The translations under genes were made by a program, and so were the position numbers. The notes beneath the pieces were generated by a model that did no database searches, was not told where the DNA came from, and worked only from the letters and a program-made list of their open reading frames with translations. From SAR116 cluster bacterium AG-447-A06 (lineage in GTDB: Bacteria > Pseudomonadota > Alphaproteobacteria > Puniceispirillales > Puniceispirillaceae), in the NCBI GenBank assembly GCA_003212345.1, contig QCPZ01000011.1, forward strand, positions 1 through 48,873: a stretch of DNA of 48,873 bases, in the 5' to 3' direction. Shown piece by piece: positions 10,415 to 12,381 of this stretch; the first letter of the stretch is position 1; the number at the start of each line of letters is the position of its first letter.

Positions 10415-11095
10415 ATGATCGATTTTACAACATTGACGCTAGTAGATTATAGTATTGTTTTTGTTCTTATTTTATCTGCGACTATGTCCATTTTACGTGG
10501 TTTAACGCGCGAAATTCTTGGCCTCGCTGGCTGGGGTGTTTCGATATTGATCGCGAATTATTCTGCACCGCTGATCGAAGATCCAATTGTTGATTTATTA
10601 CAAGTCAAAGGCCTTGGTGCAGCATTGGCATGGGGATTACCCTTCGCTGTTTCTGTTGTGATCTGGTTTATTCTCGCAAGCTTAATTGCCCCCGGCTTGA
10701 AGCGGATCGGACTCGGCACTCTTGATCGTTGGCTTGGCGTATTATTCGGATTTGTCCGCGGCTATGGGCTTGTTCTCATTGTTTTTGTGGCAGCCGTTTT
10801 TGCCGTAGAAGGGGAGAATAATCTGCCAGAAACGGTCAAAGAGTCACACAGCACTCCCCTGCTTAGTCGCAGTGCACATTATTTTTCTGGGTTTGTCCCA
10901 AGGGATTATCGCCAACAACTGCTTAATTATCTCTCATATCGTACGCCCGTAACAATGGGCCAACTCACAATTGACCAAGTTTTAACAAGTGGGGCTGGTG
11001 GTAAAACTGACGCGTCCCTTAACAAGCCCGGCAAGGTAGCCAGACAAAATTTCAGCGATAACATGCAACTATTGAGCGACGAAAAGGCCAAATAA
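10415..11095 (+). CDS. cvpA: CvpA family inner-membrane protein
   Basis: A 226-residue membrane protein of the CvpA family, named for a need in colicin V production and linked to envelope integrity; its biochemical role is not settled. Four hydrophobic segments are visible at about residues 8-27, 38-55, 69-91 and 109-132, including the family-typical ILRGLTREILGLAGWG and LGVLFGFVRGYGLV stretches. The C-terminal ~90 residues are hydrophilic. In most Proteobacteria cvpA sits directly before purF; here it precedes a purF remnant. Confidence 0.9.
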   Translation: MIDFTTLTLVDYSIVFVLILSATMSILRGLTREILGLAGWGVSILIANYSAPLIEDPIVDLLQVKGLGAALAWGLPFAVSVVIWFILASLIAPGLKRIGLGTLDRWLGVLFGFVRGYGLVLIVFVAAVFAVEGENNLPETVKESHSTPLLSRSAHYFSGFVPRDYRQQLLNYLSYRTPVTMGQLTIDQVLTSGAGGKTDASLNKPGKVARQNFSDNMQLLSDEKAK

Positions 11096-11245: not shown

Positions 11246-11662
11246 ATGTATTTGTTAAAAACCAACCAATTTGACGACAACCATTTGCAAGAAGACCGCG
11301 CGGTTTATAGTTTTTTTGGGACCAGTGAAGCTAGCATCAGCACCGCCCGTGGCCTGCGTGCGCTTCAACATCGCGGGCATGAAGCAACTTACATTGTTAG
11401 CTTTGATGTCAAGGAGTTCCAAGCACATCGCAGAATTGGACATTTTGTTGAAAATTTTGGACCTTACTTATTGGCATTTTTCTCAATTGACGAGCTATCT
11501 AGGGCCATGAGGAACGCTGGCAACAACAACGATTGCCCCCTATTCTGCGATGCGTGTTTTACTGACGATTACCCCATTGAACTTGAACCAGGGCTCTTTG
11601 CAAAGCGCGTTTCCCACGGCATCGGCCGTCAAGTTACCTCAAAAAAAGTGAGCGTCGCATGA
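11246..11662 (+). pseudogene. purF: PurF remnant: N- and C-terminal ends fused by internal deletion
   Basis: An in-frame 138-residue reading frame at the place where purF (amidophosphoribosyltransferase, ~480 residues, first step of purine synthesis) is expected. Residues ~8-71 resemble the start of the glutaminase domain: GLRALQHRGHEA, YIVSFD and a later VENF. Residues ~75-112 resemble the far C-terminus: LLAFFSIDELSRAM, then FCDACFTDDYPIEL. About 340 residues between them, including the whole PRPP-binding part, are missing. The nucleophile of the ECGVFG motif is replaced (DRAVYS, Arg18), so glutaminase activity is also lost. The CDAC pair that helps bind a 4Fe-4S cluster in Bacillus-type PurF remains. 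AGGA at 11234-11237, 8 bases before ATG 11246, is a good ribosome binding site; a longer in-frame start at 11192 exists. The stop overlaps the SDR start as ATGA. It could be a decaying gene, a translated leader, or a repurposed small protein. Confidence 0.8.
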
Positions 11663-12381
11663 CTCATGATTTTCAAAATAGGATTATTCTAATAACTGGC
11701 GCTAGCCGCGGCATTGGACGAGCAGTTGCGTTGGCGGCGGCTAAAGCAGGTGCTGACTTGATAATTACCGGTCGCACAATTGGTGCGTTGGAAGAATTAG
11801 ATGATGAAATTAAGTTGGCTGGAGGCAAGGCAACAATTGTTGAACTTGACATGCATGATTACGCAGCCATACCGCGCCTTGCCGCGGCCATCAATGGGCG
11901 CTGGGGTAAACTTGACGGTTTTGTTGCTAATGCAGCAACGCTCAACCCTCTTACACCCCTTTCGCATTTGGATGACTCGATCTGGAATGATACTATTGCT
12001 GTTAATTTGACCGCTCAATGGCATTTGATTAAGGCAATGGAACCTTTGCTACTTGCGGCGTCGGCGGGCCGAGCGGTTCTGGTTTCCTCGGGAGCTGCCG
12101 AGGGCATCAGACCCTTTTGGGGGCCATACGCTATTTCCAAGGCTGGGCTGGAAGCGATGGCGCGCGTCTGGGCGGGCGAGACTGAAAAGACAAATCTGCG
12201 CATCAACATTTTAAACCCCGGCGGCACTGCAACGGGAATGCGGGCATTAGCCTTTCCAGGGGAAAACCCGGACACGCTGCCGCAACCTGCGGATGTTGCC
12301 CCTGCCTTTTTGACCCTTCTTGACCCAGCATGCATTGATCATGGTCAACGCTTTGATGCGCGGGACATGCTAAACCTCTGA
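11659..12381 (+). CDS. SDR family NAD(P)-dependent oxidoreductase
   Basis: A 240-residue classical short-chain dehydrogenase. The cofactor motif TGASRGIG is at residues 13-20; the usual NNAG is VANAAT here; catalytic residues are Ser143/144, Tyr157 and Lys161 in GPYAISKAG. The substrate is unknown. SDRs of this type commonly follow purF in Alphaproteobacteria, so the neighbourhood is conserved even though purF itself is reduced here. Its ATG overlaps the purF-remnant stop (ATGA), so its translation probably depends on ribosomes that finish the remnant. No separate strong ribosome binding site is visible. Confidence 0.92.
   Translation: MTHDFQNRIILITGASRGIGRAVALAAAKAGADLIITGRTIGALEELDDEIKLAGGKATIVELDMHDYAAIPRLAAAINGRWGKLDGFVANAATLNPLTPLSHLDDSIWNDTIAVNLTAQWHLIKAMEPLLLAASAGRAVLVSSGAAEGIRPFWGPYAISKAGLEAMARVWAGETEKTNLRINILNPGGTATGMRALAFPGENPDTLPQPADVAPAFLTLLDPACIDHGQRFDARDMLNL

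Follow-up and report, generated by a model that had tools for sequence, protein, structure and literature searches.

The 138-codon frame between cvpA and the SDR gene

The window, i.e., the whole stretch of 48,873 nucleotides that was analyzed, comes from SAR116 cluster bacterium AG-447-A06 (G000), whose assembly amounts to 2.0 Mb in 69 contigs and is 80% complete. A frame of 138 amino acids, running from an ATG at 11246 to a stop codon ending at 11662 as the preliminary description had located it, lies between cvpA and a gene for an SDR oxidoreductase. The features of the locus are as follows.

10415..11095, + strand: cvpA (colicin V production protein family), upstream neighbour; NCBIfam NF008100, 46.5 bits (family cut-off 264)
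11246..11662, + strand: probable purF pseudogene of 138 codons, apparently open by chance; PurF matches at both ends, neutral pattern
11246..11465, + strand: 5' part of purF, spanning codons ~1-73 out of ~484, with Arg18; from alignment with intact genes
11457..11470, + strand: putative fused single copy of a short direct repeat, later diverged; from the ends of the 1068-bp deletion
11466..11629, + strand: 3' piece of purF, the last ~55 native codons; from alignment with intact genes
11630..11662, + strand: non-native extension from the native stop position to the SDR start; from comparison with intact genes
11659..12381, + strand: SDR oxidoreductase, downstream neighbour; best NCBIfam match NF006509, 216.7 bits (cut-off 269)

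The proposal that the two ends of purF are joined here in frame was borne out by comparison with intact PurF of the genus, to which residues 1-73 showed 64% identity (E 2.2e-24, G013) and residues 65-132 showed 56% identity (E 1.3e-18, G013). While both ends align with genus PurF, the TIGR01134 profile covered residues 27-71 only (24.2 bits, E 2e-5) and its cut-off of 350 bits was missed, and a Pfam scan of the frame gave three matches, all below cut-off (best E 0.026) and none PurF-like. The position of the glutaminase Cys, which we take to be the catalytic residue at the PurF N-terminus, is occupied by Arg18, as had been noted; Arg is also found in the sister genome G014 (SAR116 cluster bacterium AG-325-I21, another species, separately deposited), while Cys is found in 12 of 12 intact genus genes. 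Names of the AG- type, such as AG-325-I21, presumably denote single-cell genomes. The VDDSIVRGTTS motif, presumably the PRPP-binding motif of PurF, falls within the deleted stretch and is absent from the frame. The frame therefore has neither the TIGR01134 score, nor the glutaminase Cys, nor the PRPP motif of a functional PurF. The purB, purC, purQ, and purL genes reported in the window were all confirmed by NCBIfam matches.

The frame of G000 runs past the native stop position, which adds 10 non-native residues up to the SDR start. A stop codon stands ahead of the SDR start in 11 of the 12 intact genes (the contig of the twelfth, from G008, ends at the gene end, so that no downstream DNA entered the comparison), and the G014 remnant still has its stop codon at the native position. 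The overlap with the SDR start is thus a new stop loss in G000; of the frame, ribosome binding site, and stop overlap that had been described as persisting, the open frame and an AGGA-like site are present, but the overlap is not an old feature.

The 1068-bp deletion and the second purF

Compared with 12 of 12 intact genus relatives, the frame lacks 1068 bp, a multiple of three that corresponds to 356 codons rather than the ~340 residues first estimated; in the outgroup G020, which belongs to another genus, the corresponding stretch is 1065 bp. The junction falls at 11465/11466 in the alignment, and the ends of the deletion lie within a short imperfect direct repeat, e.g., TTGGCGCTGGCTCAT and TTGGCGCCGACTCAT in G004 and G015. 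For the majority of the nine closer relatives, the copy by the gene start is translated as GAGS and that by the gene end as GADS (GTDS in G011), and the two copies of the closer relatives share one codon phase; the repeat is weaker in G001, G002, G012, and G020. A deletion between two copies that agree in phase leaves the reading frame intact from the outset, and no selection for the frame is needed. Judging from these ends, the 1068 bp were probably lost by repeat-mediated slippage.

A single intact purF (L054; 492 aa, 477.9 bits with TIGR01134, no internal stop) was found on contig C34 of G000, alone between genes which we take, from their sequences, to encode a GntR-like regulator and a TRAP transporter. 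The genome search thus confirmed the first of three options offered earlier, a purF elsewhere, and removed the apparent gap in purine synthesis of G000; the other two, another first step and purine uptake, were rejected because an intact purF is present on C34. The other TIGR01134 match of this genome, on contig C27, remained below cut-off (107.6 bits, profile positions 1-204) and belongs to a 611-aa frame that is presumably GlmS, judging from its length. In G014 the second purF (98% identity) again adjoins these TRAP genes, and its opposite flank is occupied by a different gene; a related purF (88% identity) stands at another place in G010.

The second purF shares only 61-63% identity with its counterparts in the genus, and up to 72% with purF of other alphaproteobacterial families. 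In a PurF tree of 56 rows, in which the wider-class rows are best-scoring matches and thus an uneven sample, the second type grouped with other alphaproteobacterial families, its branch arising at a fork among several of them, and was split at 100/100 from 26 native-type rows, which comprise its own family (Puniceispirillaceae) and f2. The second-type side also took in six rows of f4, another family of the order. G000 thus holds an intact, divergent homologue with a different place in the tree, which suggests that the second purF was acquired by transfer from a foreign source. Duplication within the lineage would account for the two genes being of the same enzyme family, but with the low identity to the genus purF and the 100/100 separation from the native rows, we consider this origin extremely unlikely. 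The GC content of the C34 purF (0.435; GC3 0.363) is below the 0.526 (GC3 0.477) of the window's SDR gene. A literature search found no paper that joins "xenologous" with purF, nor SAR116 with purF.

An artefact of assembly or binning, in which the assembly had collapsed into the short form or C34 was a contaminant, would fit the fragmentary state of the G000 assembly and the lower GC content of C34 (0.433 vs. 0.484). The identical junction in G014, however, makes mis-assembly very unlikely, and G014 also carries the second purF with the adjoining TRAP genes, at a dS (0.25) like that of cvpA; we therefore give such an artefact hardly any credence.

Substitution pattern and the loci of relatives

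A search for the short form in sister genomes had been proposed, and G014 indeed carries the same deletion at the same site, but its remnant is broken by frameshifts and stop codons. The SDR genes of G000 and G014 are 95% identical. The two remnants differ at 69 of 410 aligned bases, and 46 of these 69 changes fall at codon positions 1 and 2, which is the neutral share (273/410, p = 1.0). In the intact genes of the same pair, the changes at these positions were 13/48 for SDR, 23/60 for cvpA, and 16/87 for the second purF (Fisher p vs. the remnant 3e-5, 0.0015, and 1e-9, respectively). The dN/dS of the remnant (Nei-Gojobori), one of the checks proposed earlier, was 0.88. It was 1.59 in the N part and 0.62 in the C part, the latter from few sites and counting against a neutral reading. 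By the same method the intact genes of G000 and G014 gave 0.135 (SDR), 0.195 (cvpA), and 0.055 (second purF). Over the same columns, intact purF pairs showed a median of 0.039 and a maximum of 0.291, the maximum being from a pair with only two differences (49 of 78 pairs usable; 29 saturated at silent sites omitted). The dS of the remnant (0.21) matches that of SDR, cvpA, and the second purF (0.21-0.25), and its overall divergence (0.168) is near that of the upstream intergenic DNA (0.189).

At 99 invariant codons, defined by a single residue across all intact genus relatives with a codon there, nine replacements are common to both remnants, including Cys18 to Arg, which indicates that decay probably began before G000 and G014 split. 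A further 25 were found in G000 and 24 in G014 (2 of them stops and 2 gapped codons). In simulations with substitutions only and no indels, 43-48% of frames were still open after 30-35 random neutral changes, so that it is no surprise to find one of the two sister frames open, and this weighs little. The remnant thus combines homology to purF with a disabling 1068-bp deletion and a neutral substitution pattern, as is characteristic of a pseudogene.

These data also bear on whether the fused frame has been kept to encode a small protein, either a partner that binds the intact PurF or a means of coupling translation to the SDR gene. In favor of this are the open frame with its start and upstream AGGA-like site, and the overlap of the stop with the SDR start in G000. 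The overlap is absent, however, from G014 and from the intact relatives with downstream DNA, the substitutions follow a neutral pattern, the G014 copy is broken, and conserved residues have been replaced about as often in G000 as in that broken copy. We regard a retained protein as very improbable, and re-use in G000 alone, as a translated leader coupled to SDR or as a partner of the foreign PurF, as slightly less probable still. Retention of the 138-codon frame as a gene, which the preliminary description had implied, is not supported, considering the broken sister, the dN/dS of 0.88, and the new stop loss.

Among 16 genomes of the genus, and at the thresholds used, 12 have one native-type purF, three (G000, G014, and G010) each carry a single intact second-type purF, and no purF was found in G006 (72% complete). 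G010 joins G000 and G014 in the SDR tree at 90/96, which is below the starred level. Its cvpA-SDR gap (C3, L051) is 313 bp and holds what is left of the purF 5' end, a trace of ~70-130 bp: of 500 mononucleotide shuffles, none reached the score against the intact genes of G003, G011, G013, G004, and G009, and 10 reached that against the intact G002 gene. Against the remnants of G000 and G014, the gap gave no clear signal (41/500 and 46/500 shuffles, respectively). The longer matches of the trace include a TTTTAGGA-like upstream site.

Two genomes of genus g7 of the same family (G122, 90% complete; G123, 73% complete) have, as the sole purF found, a non-native type that is located between cvpA and SDR in inverted orientation (L067 1447-2931 in G122; L066 1462-2943 in G123). 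In the tree, the g7 purF forms a separate branch beside the G000 type, at a fork. Because this branch is its own, purF may have been displaced at this locus on two occasions within the family, with g7 perhaps a separate displacement.

Probable gene displacement and comparison with known systems

Taken together, we have little doubt (probability about 0.93) that the 138-codon frame is a pseudogene left by xenologous displacement of the native purF. An ancestor of the SAR116 subclade would have acquired the second, divergent purF at another place, after which the native gene between cvpA and SDR would have been free to decay; that the gain preceded the deletion is the order we infer. A single 1068-bp deletion between the imperfect repeats would then have taken the PRPP-binding region along with the greater part of the glutaminase, with the join in frame from the start owing to the common codon phase, and later drift would have broken the G014 remnant by frameshifts and stops and left that of G000 open by chance. 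The best account of the relatives is a series of erosion stages, from intact in most sisters, through fused and open in G000 and fused and broken in G014, to nearly gone in G010. In the SAR116 group, one gene displacement would be visible at several of its stages, perhaps along with a second one at this locus in genus g7. The case also warns us that a pseudogene may mimic a neat in-frame fusion if the repeats that bound a deletion share their codon phase.

For Escherichia coli, deletions that arise between short direct repeats independently of RecA have been reported (PMC5426353). The loss of a stretch between two short direct repeats is common to both cases, while the purF repeats are imperfect and their mechanism is deduced from the ends of the deletion alone. 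Compared with PurF (TIGR01134), the frame is homologous at both ends and lies where intact relatives have purF, but 356 codons have gone, those for the PRPP-binding region and for most of the glutaminase among them, and Arg takes the place of the catalytic Cys. As in xenologous gene displacement, a general concept in which the resident copy decays, there is a foreign-looking intact copy elsewhere and a resident purF in neutral decay. There is no difference in kind: the event is of an ordinary, known type, and the case of G000 is unusually complete, with the stages in sister genomes (intact, fused open, fused broken, and trace) unusually clear.
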